Shown here piece by piece: positions 5,716 to 15,409 of a stretch of DNA of 64,000 nt. Origin of the DNA: Candidatus Nitrosymbiomonas proteolyticus (lineage in GTDB: Bacteria > Armatimonadota > Fimbriimonadia > Fimbriimonadales > Fimbriimonadaceae); NCBI GenBank assembly GCA_017347465.1, contig AP021858.1, positions 1,382,472-1,446,471 on the forward strand, read 5' to 3'. How positions within the stretch are numbered: position 1 is the stretch's first letter; each line of letters starts with the position of its first letter. The notes under the pieces are model-generated. The model saw only the letters and a program-made list of their open reading frames with translations. It made no database searches and was not told where the DNA came from. The translations under genes were made by a program, and so were the position numbers.

Positions 5716-6487
5716 GCGCGCCCCCCAAGAGTTGAAGGAGTAGCGAGAGCGTGTTGCGGAGGTTCTTTCGCGGAACGATCTTGTCGATCATCCCCGAGCG
5801 AAGGCAGAACTCGGCGGTTTGAAAGTCGTCCGGCACCTTGGAGACGCCGGCCTGCTTGCTCACTCTCGCCCCAGCAAACCCAACGAGCGCCCCCGGCTCG
5901 GCAAGGATCACGTCGGCCAAACTGGCGTAGCTAGCCAAGACCCCTGCCATCGTGGGGTCGGTAAAGACCGTTAGGAAGGGGTTGCGCGACCTTCGAAGCC
6001 TCTCGACCGCGGCCGTCGTCTTTGCCATTTGCATCAGCGAGAGCAAGCCTTCTTGCATTCGCGCTCCGCCCGAGGCGCAGAACACGAGCGCAGGTTCGTT
6101 GCGTTCGGCTGCCCGCTCGAGGGTGAGGGTGATTTTCTCGCCGGCAGCCGCCCCCATCGATCCCCCCATGAACGAAAAGTCGGAAAGCGAAACGCAAAGG
6201 GCGACGCCGTCGATCTTCGCCCTGCCGTTCAGGACGCTCTCCGTTTGCCCCGTTTTGCTCCGCGCGGATTCGATCTTCGCCTGGTAATCCGGGAACTCGA
6301 GCGCGTTGTCGGACCTCACGCCCTTATCCAGCTCCTCGAACGAGTTCGGATCGAACGTGGCGAGGATGCGCTGAGAAGCGGACAGCCTGTGGTGGAACCC
6401 GCAGTGGGGACAAACCCGAAGAGCCTGCTCGAATTCCTGCGTGAACAGAATCTTCTTGCAGGAGCCACAAGGCACAAACGCATCCAT
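5705..6487 (-). CDS. accD: Acetyl-CoA carboxylase carboxyltransferase beta subunit
   Basis: The 260-residue product begins with the AccD zinc ribbon (CGSCKKILF then CPHC) and continues with the carboxyltransferase core (GEKITLTLERAAER, SGGARMQEGLLSLMQMAKT, TDPTMAGVLASYA, GFAGARV). It pairs with AccA, encoded immediately downstream and overlapping by 11 bp. A longer open frame reaches 6712, but the family N-terminus and the zinc ribbon place the start at the ATG at 6487; the extra 75 codons look like noise. Confidence 0.94.
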   Translation of the reverse strand: MDAFVPCGSCKKILFTQEFEQALRVCPHCGFHHRLSASQRILATFDPNSFEELDKGVRSDNALEFPDYQAKIESARSKTGQTESVLNGRAKIDGVALCVSLSDFSFMGGSMGAAAGEKITLTLERAAERNEPALVFCASGGARMQEGLLSLMQMAKTTAAVERLRRSRNPFLTVFTDPTMAGVLASYASLADVILAEPGALVGFAGARVSKQAGVSKVPDDFQTAEFCLRSGMIDKIVPRKNLRNTLSLLLQLLGGAHGR

Positions 6488-6605: not shown

Positions 6606-8069
6606 ATGAGCGTACGCCGCGGGGAGAGGATCATGGGAGTCGAAACCGAATTCGGCTGCCTTGTCGCTGACAAGGCGATGGGAACCCCCGAATCTGCCGT
6701 GGAGCTTCTCAAGGACTACGTCTTCTACGATCTGAAGCTGGGAGCGATCGACCTTCACTCTCGCGACGACGTGTTTGAACCGGTGGGGTGCGGGGGCTTT
6801 CTCCTCAATGGCGGACGCCTCTACATCGACGCCGTGGGCTCGCACCTCGAATACGCGACCGCCGAATCGCGTTCCCTTCGCGACCTTGTTGCCAACGACC
6901 GGGCGGGGCAGAGAATCCTCGTCCGGGCGATCCGGGAGATGGGCTTATCGGCCGACGTGGACATTTACAACAACAGCGTCGATCATTTCGGCGGGCACAC
7001 GTTCGGCTGTCACGAGAACTACTCGATCTCCGCGGAAGGCGACGTTCTGGGTGAGAGCGTCGATCGGCTGCTGCCCTTTCTTGTCACTCGGCAGATCTAT
7101 GCGGGCGTCGGCCGGGTCGGTGGCCACATGCTGACCGGGGGAGTTCGACCCGACTACCAGGACGTGATGGAGCACCCCATCGACTACATTTGGGTCAGCC
7201 AAATCTACGGCGTCGTGCCGGACGATTCGGTTCGGTTCCAACTCAGTCAGCGCGCGGACCATATCCTCAAGGCGGTCGCAAGCAGGGTCAGGTTCAACCG
7301 CGCCCTCATCAACCCCAAGTGGGAGCACTTCTACTCGCATGAAGGAACCACGCGCCTCCACTTGCTCTTTGGCGAGTCGAATCAGATGGAGTACGCCTAC
7401 GCGTTGAAGGTGGGATCGACGCGGCTCATCCTTCAACTTCTCGAAGAAGGACGGATTCCGGAGCGGTGGGTCCTGAAGAACCCGCTTCGCGACCTTCGCG
7501 CCGTCAGCCGCGACCCGGACTTTCGATGGATCATCACCCTCGTCGACGGAACGAGCCTGTCCGCGGTCGACCTCCACCGGGAGTACCTCGCGCTCGCGCA
7601 AAGGTATGCAGGCGACTCCGAGGACGCCGACTGGACTCTCCGCGAGTGGGAAGCAACCCTCGACCAACTCGATTCGGACCCGCTGCAGCTATCCCGAAAG
7701 CTCGACTGGGTCGCCAAGCGGAAGGTGATCGAAAGCTATCTTCAGGAAACGGGCCTCGATTGGGGCGACGAGTCGCTCCACTCTGTGGACCTCGAATACC
7801 ACAACATCGACCCCTCCAAGGGCCTGTATCACGCGCTCGCCGAAATGGGTGAGGCCGAGAGATTCGTGTCCGAAGAGGATATCGTGGCGGCGATGACGGA
7901 GCCTCCTCCCGACACGCGGGCCAAAGGGAGGGGGGCGTTGGTCCGAAAGGTGCTGAGCCGACGAACTCCCAAGTACTATCTGTTCGACTGGAACGGAGCG
8001 GCGATCGATCAGGGACGGTACGTGGAAATGCCAGACCCCTTCGAGACGTACGAGGATGCCGCCCGGTAA
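6606..8069 (+). CDS. pafA: Pup-protein ligase (PafA-like)
   Basis: The 487-residue protein belongs to the PafA/Dop carboxylate-amine ligase family, which attaches the ubiquitin-like protein Pup to substrate lysines for proteasomal degradation. The N-terminus IMGVETEFG, the block RLYIDAVGSHLEYATAE, NDRAGQRIL, GGHTFGCHENY and LLPFLVTRQ are PafA signatures, and the C-terminal domain (TPPPDTRAKGR-like region near residue 440) is also of PafA type. LPFLVTRQ and the absence of an obvious Dop-loop favour PafA over the depupylase Dop. Start: ATG 6606 gives RRGERIMG, aligning with the usual arginine before IMG; ATG 6633 has a GGGGAGAGG before it and remains possible. No pup, dop, proteasome or Mpa gene is in the window. 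Confidence 0.85.
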   Translation: MSVRRGERIMGVETEFGCLVADKAMGTPESAVELLKDYVFYDLKLGAIDLHSRDDVFEPVGCGGFLLNGGRLYIDAVGSHLEYATAESRSLRDLVANDRAGQRILVRAIREMGLSADVDIYNNSVDHFGGHTFGCHENYSISAEGDVLGESVDRLLPFLVTRQIYAGVGRVGGHMLTGGVRPDYQDVMEHPIDYIWVSQIYGVVPDDSVRFQLSQRADHILKAVASRVRFNRALINPKWEHFYSHEGTTRLHLLFGESNQMEYAYALKVGSTRLILQLLEEGRIPERWVLKNPLRDLRAVSRDPDFRWIITLVDGTSLSAVDLHREYLALAQRYAGDSEDADWTLREWEATLDQLDSDPLQLSRKLDWVAKRKVIESYLQETGLDWGDESLHSVDLEYHNIDPSKGLYHALAEMGEAERFVSEEDIVAAMTEPPPDTRAKGRGALVRKVLSRRTPKYYLFDWNGAAIDQGRYVEMPDPFETYEDAAR

Positions 8070-9504: not shown

Positions 9505-11871
9505 TCACTCGCCCGAAGGCGCCCACACGTTCTTGACCTGAACCGAACGGCGAACGATCTCTCGGCAAAGCGCGCCGTTGGGGTCGGTCCAGTCGTAATC
9601 GCAATCCGGAACGGCCCAGGTTTGCTTCAGGTTGCCGGCGGAGAGTTCCAGACACCGCACAACCGACTCGGACGAACCGAAGTGCCATAGGGCGTCGATG
9701 TCGTCGTGCGCGGCCATGACCTCGGCCAATTCGCCTTCGAGCCCCGTGACCACGTTCCAGACTCCCGGCATCACGTCGGAAGCCTCGAGGACTTGAACGA
9801 ACTCGGCGGCAGGGATCGGGCCTCGCTCCGAGGGAACGAGGATTACGGCGTTGCCCAGAGCTACCGCCACAGCCCCCAGCGAAACGAAAGGCAAGAAGCT
9901 GGGAGAGGGCGGGCAGACCACAGCGATGACTCCCACCGGTTCGTTGAGCGTGTACGTGAGGCCCCGGAAGGGGGTGCTGTGGACCGCCCCGTCGTTCTTA
10001 TCGGCCCAGGCCGCCGCATCGAAAAGCCTCTTGATCGTTTCGTCTACCTGCTCCCCAGCGGCTCGAATCCCGTACCCCTCGCTCGCGGCGATAAGCTTCT
10101 CGATCGAATCGCGGCGCGAAGCGAGGTTCTCAGCGAGGTAGTAGAGAACCTGCGCGCGCAAGTGGGACGACGGGTTCTTCCCTCCTTCGTGCGCCTTGCG
10201 GGCCGATTCGACGGCGTTGCGAACATCCTTGCGGTTGCCTCGCGCCACCTCGCCCAGCCGCTCGCCCTGACTGGCCTTGACTTCGAGGGAGTACCCCTGG
10301 TCGGGACGCGCCTGTTTGCCGCCGATGTAGTGCTTGTAGGTTCGGTCGAGCTGGGCCGTGAAGCCCATCGGGCTGACCGGGTGGGGTTTGGGGGGCTTAG
10401 CCTTCGCAAGGGGCGGGATCACGTATTCGAGCAGCCCTTCGAATCCTCCCTCACGTCCGAAGCCGCTCTCCTTATATCCGCCGAAGCCCGAGGCGGCGTC
10501 GAAGAGGTTGGTCGAGTTGATCCATACGGTCCCCGCCTTCACCTGGGCCGCAACGTCGAGCGCGAGGCTGAGGTTCTCGGTCCAAACGCTCGCCGCCAAT
10601 CCGTACACCGTGTTGTTGGCGAGTTCGACCGCCTCCTTGGGCGTTCGGAAGGGCATCGCCACCAGAACGGGGCCGAAAATCTCGATCTGCGCGACCGTCG
10701 AGGCGGGCGCGACGTTCGTCATGAGCGTCGGCGGGTAGAACCAGCCCTCTTTCGGGCACGCTCCGGGGGGTTGGTACATCACCGCGCCCTCTTCGACTCC
10801 CGCCTTGACGAGGCTCTCGATCCGCTCCAACTGCACGGGCGCGACGATTGCGCCGATGTCGATCGATTTGTCGAGGGGATTGCCGACGCGCAAAGCGTCC
10901 ATCCTTCGCCGGAGCTTCTCGCAAAACCGTCCTTCGATGCTTTCTTGAACCAGCAAACGCGAGCCCGCGCAGCAAACCTGCCCCTGATTGAACCAGATCG
11001 CGTCCACGATGCCTTCGATGGCACTGTCCCAGTCTGCGTCCTCGAAGACGATGAACGGCGACTTGCCCCCCAATTCCAAGCTCAACCGCTTTCTCGTGCC
11101 GGCGGTGGCTTTGCGGAGGATTCGTCCCACTTCGGTCGATCCAGTGAAAGCGATCTTGTCGACGTCCGGGTGTTCGACGAGCAGTTTGCCGGTGTCGCCG
11201 TCTCCGGTGACCACGTTGACGACACCCTGCGGAACCTCGGCTGCTTGGCAGATTTCAGCGAACAAGAGCGCGGTGAGCGGGGTGAACTCTGCGGGCTTGA
11301 GGACCACGGTATTTCCCATCGCGATCGCCGGCGCGATCTTCCACGCGAGCATCAACAACGGGAAGTTCCACGGGATGATCTGCCCGCAAACGCCGACCGG
11401 CCGGTAACCGGGCAGCCTCGCAGGCATGAGCTGGGCCCAGCCGGCATGGTGGTAGAAGTGGCGCGCCACGAGCGGTACATCGAGGTCGCGCGTCTCGCGG
11501 ATGGGCTTGCCGTTGTCGAGCGTTTCGAGCACGGCAAAGAGCCTCGCGTGCTTCTGAACTTGGCGGGCCAGCGCGTAAAGAACTTTCGCTCGTTCATGCG
11601 GAGACGACTCTTGCCAATCGGGCTGCGCCTTTCTTGCCGCAGCCACCGCCCGCGCCACATCCTCTTCCGTGCCTTGCGACACTTGGGCGAGAACTTGCTT
11701 GTCCGCAGGGTTGATGCTATCGAAAACCGGGCTTCCTCCCGGTTGGGTGAACTTGCCGTTGATGAAGTGCCCGAGCGTCCCACCGTGCGATTCGATCCAT
11801 TGCCGAGCCAACTGCGCGTCCTCAGGCGCGGGACCGTAGGGCAATGGGTCATAAAGCGTGGCAAGGTCCAT
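9505..11871 (-). CDS. Two-domain aldehyde dehydrogenase (ALDH16-like)
   Basis: The 788-residue protein is a head-to-tail fusion of two aldehyde dehydrogenase modules. The first (about 1-480) is complete: NAD-binding region, LSLELGGKSPF with the general-base Glu, and NQGQVCCAGSR with the catalytic Cys near residue 300. The second (about 510-788) keeps the ALDH N-terminal fold (YIGGKQARPDQGYS) but ends before any catalytic Cys region. This arrangement is that of the ALDH16 family, in which the second module is structural. It should oxidise an aldehyde to an acid with NAD(P); the substrate is unknown. It shares a convergent end with the SLBB gene (4 bp apart) and diverges from a GNAT gene. Confidence 0.88.
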   Translation of the reverse strand: MDLATLYDPLPYGPAPEDAQLARQWIESHGGTLGHFINGKFTQPGGSPVFDSINPADKQVLAQVSQGTEEDVARAVAAARKAQPDWQESSPHERAKVLYALARQVQKHARLFAVLETLDNGKPIRETRDLDVPLVARHFYHHAGWAQLMPARLPGYRPVGVCGQIIPWNFPLLMLAWKIAPAIAMGNTVVLKPAEFTPLTALLFAEICQAAEVPQGVVNVVTGDGDTGKLLVEHPDVDKIAFTGSTEVGRILRKATAGTRKRLSLELGGKSPFIVFEDADWDSAIEGIVDAIWFNQGQVCCAGSRLLVQESIEGRFCEKLRRRMDALRVGNPLDKSIDIGAIVAPVQLERIESLVKAGVEEGAVMYQPPGACPKEGWFYPPTLMTNVAPASTVAQIEIFGPVLVAMPFRTPKEAVELANNTVYGLAASVWTENLSLALDVAAQVKAGTVWINSTNLFDAASGFGGYKESGFGREGGFEGLLEYVIPPLAKAKPPKPHPVSPMGFTAQLDRTYKHYIGGKQARPDQGYSLEVKASQGERLGEVARGNRKDVRNAVESARKAHEGGKNPSSHLRAQVLYYLAENLASRRDSIEKLIAASEGYGIRAAGEQVDETIKRLFDAAAWADKNDGAVHSTPFRGLTYTLNEPVGVIAVVCPPSPSFLPFVSLGAVAVALGNAVILVPSERGPIPAAEFVQVLEASDVMPGVWNVVTGLEGELAEVMAAHDDIDALWHFGSSESVVRCLELSAGNLKQTWAVPDCDYDWTDPNGALCREIVRRSVQVKNVWAPSGE

Positions 11872-11904: not shown

Positions 11905-12504
11905 ATGTCCCCCGAACTGCGCCTAGAACCGATCGTTCTTGCCGGAACGTACGTGCGCCTGGAGCCCCTCCGAGCCGATCATGCGCCCGCCCTCTTGGAG
12001 AGTTGCCGCGACCAGGAGATTTGGCGATGGATGCTCATCGAGCAGCCCACAACGCTCGAAGCGATGCAGGATTGGCTGAGTCGTGCCCTGCGCGATCAAG
12101 ACCAGGGACACGCTTTACCCTTTATACAAATCGATCCCCCGACAGGAGGGGTCATCGGCACGACCCGGTACATGGACGTCCGGCCGTACGATCGATCTCT
12201 GGAGATCGGCTGGACTTGGCTCGCGCCTACCTTTCGAAGGACCGCCGCCAACACCGAAAGCAAGTTCCTCTTGCTTGAACACGCGTTCGAGAGGCTGGGA
12301 GCGAAGAGAGTGCAACTCAAAACGGATGTCCGAAACGAGATGTCTCGAACGGCGATTGAGCGAGTCGGCGCGAAGTTTGAAGGCGTCTTGAGGAACTACC
12401 AGCGACGCTTCGATGGCACGGTTCGGGATACGGCGATGTACAGCATCATCGACGCGGACTGGCCCCAAGCGCGTGAGGCCCTTAGATCGAGGCTCAGTTC
12501 CTAG
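11905..12504 (+). CDS. GNAT N-acetyltransferase (RimJ/RimL type)
   Basis: A 199-residue acetyltransferase of the GNAT superfamily that probably uses acetyl-CoA. The protein starts with VRLEPLRADHAPALLE, typical of the RimJ/RimL or YdaF branch, and contains the beta4-alpha3 region EIGWTWLAPTFRRTAANTES and the motif B-like VGAKFEGVLRNYQ. The substrate (protein N-terminus, amino sugar or small molecule) cannot be deduced. The gene converges on deoC; the two stops share the palindrome CTAG. Confidence 0.82.
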   Translation: MSPELRLEPIVLAGTYVRLEPLRADHAPALLESCRDQEIWRWMLIEQPTTLEAMQDWLSRALRDQDQGHALPFIQIDPPTGGVIGTTRYMDVRPYDRSLEIGWTWLAPTFRRTAANTESKFLLLEHAFERLGAKRVQLKTDVRNEMSRTAIERVGAKFEGVLRNYQRRFDGTVRDTAMYSIIDADWPQAREALRSRLSS

Positions 12505-13475: not shown

Positions 13476-13526
13476 TCTCCAGCATTGTAGCGGATCGGCG
13501 GGCGGTCCGCAGCGCTTCGACCGAAG

Positions 13527-13532
13527 CATAAT
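13527..13532 (+). promoter_or_regulatory. Probable -10 box of the ATP-grasp-like pair (leaderless)
   Basis: CATAAT ends 6 nt before the GTG at 13539. Confidence 0.4.
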
Positions 13533-13538
13533 CGTCTC

Positions 13539-14528
13539 GTGATCTATTACCTGGCGACCGAGAAGGGCCGAGGCGCGATTCACCGGCATTACGAGAGATA
13601 CGCGCACTCTTTTTCGCGGGTCGTTCAGGAACTCACCTACGATGAGATTCTGAGAAGAGGGAAGGCGCCTGCGGGAACTTACATCTTTGCCGATTACGGG
13701 GCGATGAATCCCGTTCAGTGGAGGCTGGTGGGGCAGCTCTGGGAGGCGATCCGGCAGGGTTCGCCGGAGTCGCTCCTGATCAACCACCCTGCGCGGGTCC
13801 TGACACGCAAGCAGCTCTTAAAGGGCCTTTTCGAGCAAGGGCTCAACAGGTTCAACGTATACGGCCTCGACGAGCCCCTCGCCGGGGTTCGGTTTCCGGT
13901 CTTCGTGCGAACGGGCGTAGGGCACTCTGGGGCGCTTTCGGGACTTCTCAACAGCCTCGAAGAGGTTCGAACTCACGCCGACCGCCTGATCTTGGCGGGG
14001 ATCGATCCCAAGAATCTGCTCATTGTCGAGTTCGAGGACACGTCGGACGGCCAGGGGCGGTATCGCAAGTACGGAGCGTTTCGAATCGGAGGATCGATCT
14101 TGCCTCGGCACCTTTTCGTTTCGCGCCATTGGGAGGTGCGCTTGGGCGTTGCGGAGGACTCGGAGTCCGTTCACGAGGAGGAGCGCCGGTACCTCGATTC
14201 GGAGGAGCACCTTGGGAAGATCATGTCGCTTTTCGAGTTCGCGGGGATCGAATATGGGAGGATCGACTACTCGCTCCTCGGAGATTCGATTCAGACTTGG
14301 GAGATCAACGACAACCCCAACCTGTTGCCAGAACGAAACTCGGTCTCGCCCGGAGCTTGGCGGAACTGCATCGAGTTCGGCGAACGTTATGAGCGGGCTA
14401 TGCGCGGATTGGATCGGCCTGCGAGCGGACCTGCAACAGCTCTCGCGGCCGAGGGGTTCGGCGAGGTCGCGTGGGCGGCTCTCCACGAGTACTTTTCCGG
14501 TCGACCTATAGGGGAGGCGAGAGGGTGA
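13539..14528 (+). CDS. ATP-grasp-like protein, first of two tandem paralogues
   Basis: The 329-residue cytosolic protein ends its conserved core with IEYGRIDYSLLGDSIQTWEINDNPNLLP; the E-I-N-D-N-P segment resembles the metal-binding strand of ATP-grasp enzymes, and IVEFEDTSD plus KYGAFRIGGSILPRHLF resemble the nucleotide-binding strands. ATP-grasp enzymes ligate a carboxylate to an amine or thiol through an acylphosphate. The substrate is unknown. It overlaps the following paralogue by 4 bp (GTGA), so both are made from one mRNA. Start: GTG with a CATAAT -10 hexamer 6 nt upstream. I regard the fold call as probable and the function as unknown. Confidence 0.6.
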   Translation: MIYYLATEKGRGAIHRHYERYAHSFSRVVQELTYDEILRRGKAPAGTYIFADYGAMNPVQWRLVGQLWEAIRQGSPESLLINHPARVLTRKQLLKGLFEQGLNRFNVYGLDEPLAGVRFPVFVRTGVGHSGALSGLLNSLEEVRTHADRLILAGIDPKNLLIVEFEDTSDGQGRYRKYGAFRIGGSILPRHLFVSRHWEVRLGVAEDSESVHEEERRYLDSEEHLGKIMSLFEFAGIEYGRIDYSLLGDSIQTWEINDNPNLLPERNSVSPGAWRNCIEFGERYERAMRGLDRPASGPATALAAEGFGEVAWAALHEYFSGRPIGEARG

Positions 14529-15409
14529 TTCTGTATATTGCCACGCCGAACAACCTGAATACTATCGGTCATTTGGTCGAGGAGTGGGTTCCCGACCTTG
14601 CGGGTCTGATTCGAACGTTGCGATACGATCAATTAGTTGAGGTGGAGAGCCTTCCGGATGCAACATATCTGTTCGCCGATCTTGCCCGCCTGATGGACCC
14701 CGCGCGAGAGGTTGTCAAGAGCTTTGCGGATCGGGTCGCCCTTGCGGGACACAGGATCGTCAACGAACCGAGGGTCGCAAAGGGCCGCTACGAACTTCTC
14801 AGGGGCCTTTTTGAGTCCGGGCGCAACCCGTTCAACGCGTATCGGCTGAGCGAGTTTCCAAGGGAAGTGCGCTTCCCAGTGTTCGTTCGTCTTGGACGGG
14901 ATCACAGCACGTCGGAGAGCCCGCTCCTCGAGAACCGAGCGGACTTGGATGAGTATTTGGTCCTTGCGCTCCTTCATGGCCTCGACCCCAACGATCTCCT
15001 CGTGATCGAGTTCGAGGACGTTGCGGATGAGCGCCGCGAGGTTTCGAAGTTCGGCGCGTTTCGCGTGGGGGGCCAAGTGCTTCCGCGCCACTTGCTTCGA
15101 GGCTCGCACTGGGCGCAACGGGTGGCTCTTCGGAGCCCAAGTTTTCGGCTGATCGAGGATGAACGCGCATATTGCGAATCCAACCCTCATCAACAGGAGA
15201 TTCTCGACATATTCAACTTTGCTGGGTTGGAATATGGACGAATCGACTACTCGATCAAGGGCGGGAAGGTCGTCACATGGGAAATCAACGACAACCCGAT
15301 GCCCATGTCGGCGCGGTCGGTTTACACCCCCGAGCACCTCCCCCACCAAGAGCGGTTTGCGGAGGCATTGGCCGCCGCGCTCCGCTCGTTGGATGAAGGA
15401 TCAGCATAG
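14525..15409 (+). CDS. ATP-grasp-like protein, second of two tandem paralogues
   Basis: The 294-residue product aligns with its upstream neighbour throughout: RYELLRGLFESGRNPFNAYR against QLLKGLFEQGLNRFNVYG, VSKFGAFRVGGQVLPRHLL, and LEYGRIDYSIKGGKVVTWEINDNP. The GTG start overlaps the preceding stop (GTGA) and has a purine-rich GGGGAGGCGAGAGGG before it, so it is translationally coupled. A longer frame from 14471 exists but adds nothing conserved. Two diverged copies in one operon suggest a heterodimer or two related substrates; neither is proven. Confidence 0.6.
   Translation: MILYIATPNNLNTIGHLVEEWVPDLAGLIRTLRYDQLVEVESLPDATYLFADLARLMDPAREVVKSFADRVALAGHRIVNEPRVAKGRYELLRGLFESGRNPFNAYRLSEFPREVRFPVFVRLGRDHSTSESPLLENRADLDEYLVLALLHGLDPNDLLVIEFEDVADERREVSKFGAFRVGGQVLPRHLLRGSHWAQRVALRSPSFRLIEDERAYCESNPHQQEILDIFNFAGLEYGRIDYSIKGGKVVTWEINDNPMPMSARSVYTPEHLPHQERFAEALAAALRSLDEGSA

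Follow-up and report, generated by a model that had tools for sequence, protein, structure and literature searches.

A tandem pair of predicted ATP-grasp proteins of the RimK/LysX structural class in Candidatus Nitrosymbiomonas proteolyticus

The gene pair and its surroundings

The window, that is, the whole stretch of 64,000 nucleotides analysed here, corresponds to positions 1382472-1446471 of a single 2.81-Mb contig. It contains two overlapping genes, named A and B, whose limits were taken from the list of open reading frames (ORFs). The features of the pair, in window positions, are the following.

13476-13538, no strand: gap of 63 bases between gene A and the divergent DeoC-family gene, as set by the ORF limits
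13539-14528, plus strand: gene A, predicted RimK/LysX-like ATP-grasp protein of 329 aa, GTG start
about residues 293-329 of A: extra C-terminal tail, its last part of low confidence in the model
14301-14318, plus strand: EINDNP segment of A, in which Glu255 and Asn257 align with the RimK-type metal-site Glu and Asn (alignments and profile alignment)
14525-14528, plus strand: GTGA overlap of the A stop and the B start, read from the sequence
14525-15409, plus strand: gene B, predicted RimK/LysX-like ATP-grasp protein of 294 aa, GTG start at 14525
15281-15298, plus strand: EINDNP segment of B, with Glu253 and Asn255 (alignments and profile alignment)

Gene B was taken to start with the GTG of 14525; its longest possible frame opens at 14471, upstream of the conserved N-terminus. 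BLASTP aligned A and B with 112 identical residues in 292 aligned positions (38%, E 3e-67). Together with the overlap at 14525-14528 and the EINDNP segment, which both proteins carry close to the C-terminus, this agrees with the original prediction, which described two diverged copies sharing these features. The GTGA overlap suggests that A and B are translationally coupled. An identical overlap occurs in the pair of a second assembly of the same species (G119, CP054189.1) and in a second tandem pair of the source genome. Since the same pair is kept in G119, with A 95% and B 96% identical, it is not a product of chance.

The first neighbours of the pair are genes for a DeoC-family aldolase (divergent, 324 aa) and a transketolase (convergent, 667 aa), so the earlier statement that no pathway gene is adjacent holds for the window. 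No ORF of at least 20 aa is present in the gaps of 63 and 38 bases that flank the pair. The 63-base gap at 13476-13538 would have to contain the promoter of the pair, unless transcription begins inside the DeoC-family gene. A reading of the two flanking genes as conserved neighbours was rejected, because their homologues are located on different contigs in the congener G001. In another relative (G018, locus L050), a transketolase gene is found 3 kb from the family member in otherwise different surroundings, which was taken as chance. A Poly_export/SLBB gene lies 4 kb from the window pair, beyond two genes of the opposite strand. The G+C content is 0.61 for A, 0.58 for B and 0.61 for the window, and at third positions 0.74 for A and 0.68 for B; neither gene is clearly marked as foreign by its base composition, B being slightly lower.

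Other genes recorded on this side of the window were a GNAT acetyltransferase near the pair (11905-12504, plus strand; PF13302, E 4.1e-23), a 788-aa protein with two aldehyde dehydrogenase stretches adjoining the DeoC-family gene (9505-11871), and a protein of the Pup-ligase family (6606-8069; PF03136, E 9.6e-125), here in an Armatimonadota genome.

Predicted fold, active site and sequence family

AlphaFold2 models of A and B were built from alignments of window and related-locus sequences only (15 rows). The mean pLDDT was 89.1 for B and 85.3 for A, whose residues 319-329 fall below 50. In Foldseek searches of the PDB, the top rows for B were D-Ala ligases, ArgX, LysX and RimK (best E 3.7e-10), and those for A were ArgX, Ddl and RimK (best E 3.2e-9). 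VIA-align gave LysX (3vpd_A) as the best match of both models, with Z 16.8 and rmsd 4.2 over 260 residues for B and Z 16.6 and rmsd 4.3 over 263 residues for A; RimK (Z 16.1 to 16.6) and ArgX were tied with LysX in both cases. Scores were lower for glutathione synthetase and D-Ala ligases (Z 14 to 15) and for inositol phosphate kinases with an ATP-grasp fold (Z 13 to 14.4). Global TM-scores were moderate, about 0.45-0.57.

The models support an ATP-grasp fold for A and B over nearly their full length, with pre-ATP-grasp, central and C-terminal lobes, and the solved fold closest to both predictions is that of the RimK/LysX structural class. The guess of an ATP-grasp fold, made from the sequence, was thus supported by structure prediction and structural search, in which both models matched ATP-grasp enzymes over about 260 residues, and not an unrelated fold. 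The accompanying suggestion of an unknown ligation step still looks reasonable: carboxylate-amine ligases head the structural matches, although ATP-grasp kinases reach Z 13-14 as well.

Neither A nor B matched any Pfam or NCBIfam family even at E 10, the RimK family PF08443 included, and nothing significant was found for them among PDB sequences, where the best E-values of the single-sequence searches were 0.5 and 1.4. The profile of the family likewise gave nothing significant against PDB sequences (best E 0.097, with antibody chains among the matches). Against RimK-type proteins of the relatives it gave E 0.0011, with a low hhalign probability of 21%, and against Ddl E 0.0049, with a low probability of 7%; five profile controls (a MurC-like half, SDF, two reversed profiles and the reversed family) fell between E 0.41 and 0.86. 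The distant member at locus L015 is the sole one to clear the Pfam cut-off for RimK (28.8 vs 21 bits). One of 16 family members weakly matches the NCBIfam graspetide model TIGR04187 (E 0.004), which neither A nor B does. Weak matches to ATPgrasp_ST and to YheC/D-like ATP-grasp came from two of the 16 members each, other than A and B (best E 0.058 and 0.017, respectively), all of them under the Pfam cut-offs where shown.

As conserved we counted the 38 alignment columns whose residue is shared by at least 85% of 24 other core rows. Of these, 35 are retained in A and 33 in B, the putative ATP and metal positions among them. B retains Arg122, Glu162, Lys175, Asp241, Glu253 and Asn255, A has the equivalents, and B is off the consensus at Gly129, Gly171 and Gln250. 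By alignment, we take Asp241, Glu253 and Asn255 of B to be the metal site and Arg122 to hold the position of the phosphate-binding Lys; in the profile alignment, Arg122 of B and Arg124 of A stand where RimK-type proteins have that Lys.

At the loci L084-L094, D-Ala-D-Ala ligase domains end long frames (558 to 705 aa as read). Many of these frames begin with a MurC-like GTHGK segment, which we take to suggest MurC-Ddl fusions.

Distribution, evolution and gene context of the family

The family is sporadic in Armatimonadota. A single-sequence search matched 8 of 101 near relatives, and matches are present in 11 of the 113 genomes from the order and 13 of the 291 from the phylum. Two of these 13 (G113 and G175) have partial matches only (50-60 bits) and one (G036) a distant member only. 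The source genome has five copies: the window pair, the second tandem pair (1628493-1630300) and a single distant copy (at about 2705589). A member is also carried by two of 72,556 plasmids, from Deinococcus sp. QL22 and Paracoccus sp. MC1862, and by nine distinct predicted viral contigs (IMG/VR). On viral contig L062 a virion structural protein was recognised by PHROG matches, and on L078 likewise, with a major head protein and a tail fibre. In the viral group L061/L074-L078, the ATP-grasp gene is on the strand opposite to the virion structural gene. Tblastn with three members (the L008, L078 and L080 proteins) found no match in 50,697 GenBank phages, and no PHROG matched the ATP-grasp proteins among the members and neighbours tried. 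The occurrence in phages is therefore argued from the predicted viral contigs and from the phage-structural genes of L062 and L078.

A family tree was made from 35 rows, leaving out the weak matches of G113, G175 and G001 (C11) and the degenerate second gene of L052. This tree joins A and B, each with its G119 counterpart, as sister groups (support 97/96) about 1.8 changes per site apart. Their sequences point to an old duplication within the source lineage, and at this distance A and B may have parted in function. Between the two assemblies, A has 33 synonymous and 19 non-synonymous changes (dN/dS 0.17) and B has 16 and 14, respectively (dN/dS 0.27); the ratio is 0.13 for the neighbouring transketolase and 0.44 for the DeoC-family gene, the latter from only 14 changes. 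By these counts, A and B look constrained.

Tandem pairs are found in four settings: in the window, at the second pair of the source genome (together with related pairs in G119 and G051), in G034 and on viral contig L074. Several other members of the family are single-copy genes. The G051 pair has a TGATG overlap. In the tree the two G034 copies do not group as sisters (supports 86/39 and 84/60), so this pair need not come from a local duplication. On L074 the DNA of the two ATP-grasp copies is 84% identical, and 198 bases at the start of their spacer (5825-6061) are a 97% match to the 5′ part of the glycosyltransferase segment downstream, which is the trace of a duplication of the ATP-grasp gene plus the start of the GT2 gene.

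The second pair of the source genome belongs to a clade in which a symporter gene of the SDF family is located directly upstream of the first ATP-grasp copy (source genome, G119, G001 and G051); in G013 the symporter gene is convergent to the ATP-grasp gene, and no SDF transporter adjoins the window pair. The first copy is intact, keeping 36 of the 38 conserved positions in the source genome and in G051, and it is the only copy in G001. The downstream copy keeps 12 in the source genome and 9 in G051, where its alignment is uncertain; Arg replaces the metal-site Glu, and Glu or Ala the Asn. The genes concerned are listed by locus.

L043, 7111-8451: divergent SDF symporter gene
L043, 9459-10349: degenerate downstream tandem copy, most conserved ATP-grasp positions lost
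L045, 7063-8253: divergent SDF symporter gene
L048, 7660-8928: divergent SDF symporter gene
L052, 5378-6175: degenerate downstream tandem copy, most conserved ATP-grasp positions lost
L052, 7114-8325: divergent SDF symporter gene
L070, 6308-7693: divergent SDF symporter gene
L073, 7319-8659: divergent SDF symporter gene

An alignment of 91 residues (E 2e-8) relates the two degenerate copies. The one in the source genome differs from its G119 counterpart by 6 synonymous and 2 non-synonymous changes (dN/dS 0.11, from few changes), and the copy of these two assemblies has a long branch whose placement in the tree is unsure. It appears that a pseudo-ATP-grasp partner is kept in at least part of the SDF-linked clade, and a pseudo-enzyme role is likely. 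The divergent type of SDF symporter is present in 6 of 21 genomes searched for PF00375, and an ATP-grasp gene is adjacent in five of the six, the exception being G034. As four of the five come from one clade (100/99), the adjacency amounts to about two independent cases. The N-x-x-G-T motif is absent from all six divergent symporters and present in six of seven ordinary copies, the seventh being read in a wrong frame; in the M-x-R-T segment, the divergent type has Lys or Asn where ordinary copies have Arg. This comparison of the two types rests on motifs, since the SDF tree left nearly all forks open.

Neighbourhood analysis revealed no pathway gene adjoining the window pair; among the relatives, it revealed glycosyltransferase, exopolysaccharide, SnoaL-like and 2OG-oxygenase genes. 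On viral contigs L063 and L064, and likewise in G140, the gene that immediately precedes the ATP-grasp gene is SnoaL-like; that of L064 is under the Pfam cut-offs and is 47% identical to that of L063. The SnoaL-like genes are located as follows.

L063, 4600-5004: SnoaL-like gene
L064, 4699-5004: SnoaL-like gene
L067, 8640-9113: SnoaL-like gene, Armatimonadota genome

A GT2 gene is close to the ATP-grasp gene on viral contigs L061, L074 and L077; it is not in the examined part of L078, and L075 and L076 end too soon to show the neighbour. On viral contig L080 a 2OG-Fe(II) oxygenase gene follows the ATP-grasp gene. The Paracoccus sp. MC1862 plasmid member lies in an exopolysaccharide cluster, between oligosaccharide flippase and O-antigen ligase genes, and the Deinococcus sp. 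QL22 plasmid member has no glycan genes as neighbours. The distant members in the source genome and in G051 follow a Methyltransf_24 gene, and a GNAT gene adjoins the G034 tandem pair. These contexts name no single pathway, and outside Fimbriimonadaceae-type genomes glycan genes are the most frequent company of the family.

Interpretation and comparison with known systems

A and B show a tandem duplication with overlap, a predicted ATP-grasp fold, retained residues and signs of constraint, and it is probable that both are enzymatically active. We propose, with modest confidence, that they form one coupled unit of duplicated, active carboxylate-amine (or similar C-N) ligases of the RimK/LysX class, paired on one pathway. 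In the proposed mechanism, a carboxylate of the substrate would be phosphorylated by ATP in the cleft that separates the central from the C-terminal ATP-grasp lobe, Mg2+ would be bound by Asp241/Glu253/Asn255 of B and Asp243/Glu255/Asn257 of A, Arg122 of B and Arg124 of A would stand in for the Lys that usually binds phosphate, and the acyl-phosphate would then be attacked by an amine. A and B would work as a heteromer or as two consecutive ligases. That they act as a functional pair at all is, in our estimate, slightly favoured. An A-B heteromer is plausible but held with less than even confidence: the translational overlap, the recurrence of tandem pairs and the retention of a degenerate downstream copy in one setting argue for it, while the several single-copy members and the active-site residues kept by both window copies are against it or neutral. 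By analogy with the relatives, the best lead to the substrate would be a cell-surface glycan or amino-acid conjugate, a lead drawn from the Paracoccus member between flippase and O-antigen ligase genes and from the GT2 gene near the family member on three viral contigs. No glycan gene is a first neighbour of the window pair, and we regard a glycan-linked substrate as somewhat unlikely.

The most serious alternative, rated about the same as the heteromer, is that A and B are two independent homomeric enzymes of different substrates which arose by local duplication. The relatives LysX and RimK are homo-oligomers, single-copy members exist, A and B lie far apart in the tree (path length about 1.8) and both keep their active-site residues, all of which fits this view; against it, both assemblies have the overlap, the second pair of the source genome repeats it, tandem pairs recur, and the SDF-linked loci hold on to a degenerate partner. 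The SDF-linked setting also bears on the idea that one of the two window copies is a non-catalytic regulatory or scaffold pseudo-enzyme, since the two SDF-linked downstream copies, with 12 and 9 of the 38 positions, have neither the Glu nor the Asn of the metal site. B differs from the consensus at three positions (Gly129, Gly171 and Gln250) but still has its putative Arg122, Glu162, Lys175, Asp241, Glu253 and Asn255, which makes a pseudo-enzyme in the window improbable.

The fold itself would also be compatible with a small-molecule kinase of the ITPK/PPIP5K type instead of a ligase. Both models match inositol phosphate kinases (Z 13 to 14.4). They match LysX and RimK at least 2 Z units better, yet glutathione synthetase and Ddl tie with the kinases; we consider a kinase very unlikely. 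Slightly less probable still is a graspetide (microviridin-like) system, in which two ATP-grasp ligases would cyclise a ribosomal precursor peptide. GNAT genes, which also occur in microviridin clusters, are found near the window pair (11905-12504) and adjoining the G034 pair. Some microviridin-like loci contain two ATP-grasp genes (PMC8939145), and one of the structures that B matches is that of the graspetide ligase PsnB (Z 13.5). However, a precursor has no room beside the pair, whose gaps of 63 and 38 bases are without an ORF of at least 20 aa and whose neighbours are enzymes of 324 and 667 aa; LysX and RimK stand about 3 Z units above PsnB for the B model; and no NCBIfam graspetide family matched A or B, the weak TIGR04187 match (E 0.004) belonging to one other member of 16. 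The short-ORF scan covered the gaps beside the pair and, among the second neighbours, only the GNAT gene at 11905-12504 was considered. The graspetide reading was rejected on the absence of a precursor ORF from these gaps.

A broader extension of the proposed coupled ligase pair is doubtful. Heteromeric ligases from duplicated subunits would be common to Armatimonadota, plasmids and phages, with both subunits catalytic, as in the window, or with one of them turned into an obligate pseudo-ATP-grasp partner and linked to the altered SDF symporter. Phages, whose copies are next to glycosyltransferase, SnoaL-like or 2OG-oxygenase genes, would employ this ligation to modify the host surface or the virion. 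If the phage copies do modify a surface glycan, amide-bond formation would join the host-surface modification chemistries of phages. The degenerate-partner setting may come as a surprise to specialists. A genome that has both intact and degenerate partners offers a natural test of the passage from a homomeric ATP-grasp ligase to a heteromer with a pseudo-enzyme subunit. A model-less ATP-grasp family in phages and scattered Armatimonadota is in any case a defined target for enzymology.

Among the matches listed, no description of the family was found in the literature on ATP-grasp ligases, pseudoenzymes, glycans and gene neighbourhoods. The family has no model in Pfam, NCBIfam or PHROGs, and its fold class is well known. 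A phage R2K ATP-grasp family is described in PMC7824862. ATPgrasp_ST and YheC/D-like proteins are weakly matched by two of 16 members each and, for some relatives, keep similar glycan-gene company, but neither is matched by A or B. Microviridin has a ligase pair, MdnB/MdnC. Graspetide pairs of this kind are of the same fold class and may have adjacent ATP-grasp genes (PMC8939145), but the window pair differs from them in having no precursor ORF and a lower structural score with PsnB (13.5). D-alanine-D-alanine ligase, glutathione synthetase and the D-cycloserine synthetase DcsG are ATP-grasp ligases matched at Z about 14 to 15, below LysX and RimK, with a profile E of only 0.0049 against Ddl. 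RimK, the poly-alpha-glutamate and ribosomal protein S6 ligase, is closer (Z 16.1 to 16.6), and a distant member (L015) clears its Pfam model; A and B do not match PF08443 and have Arg for the phosphate-binding Lys. Finally, A and B differ from the LysW ligases LysX and ArgX in an identity of 11-16% in the structural alignments, in the lack of a Pfam or NCBIfam match and in that no LysW-like carrier was seen beside the pair, but they share with them the predicted fold over the whole length, as the top match, and the same Asp/Glu/Asn metal-site pattern by RimK-type alignment.
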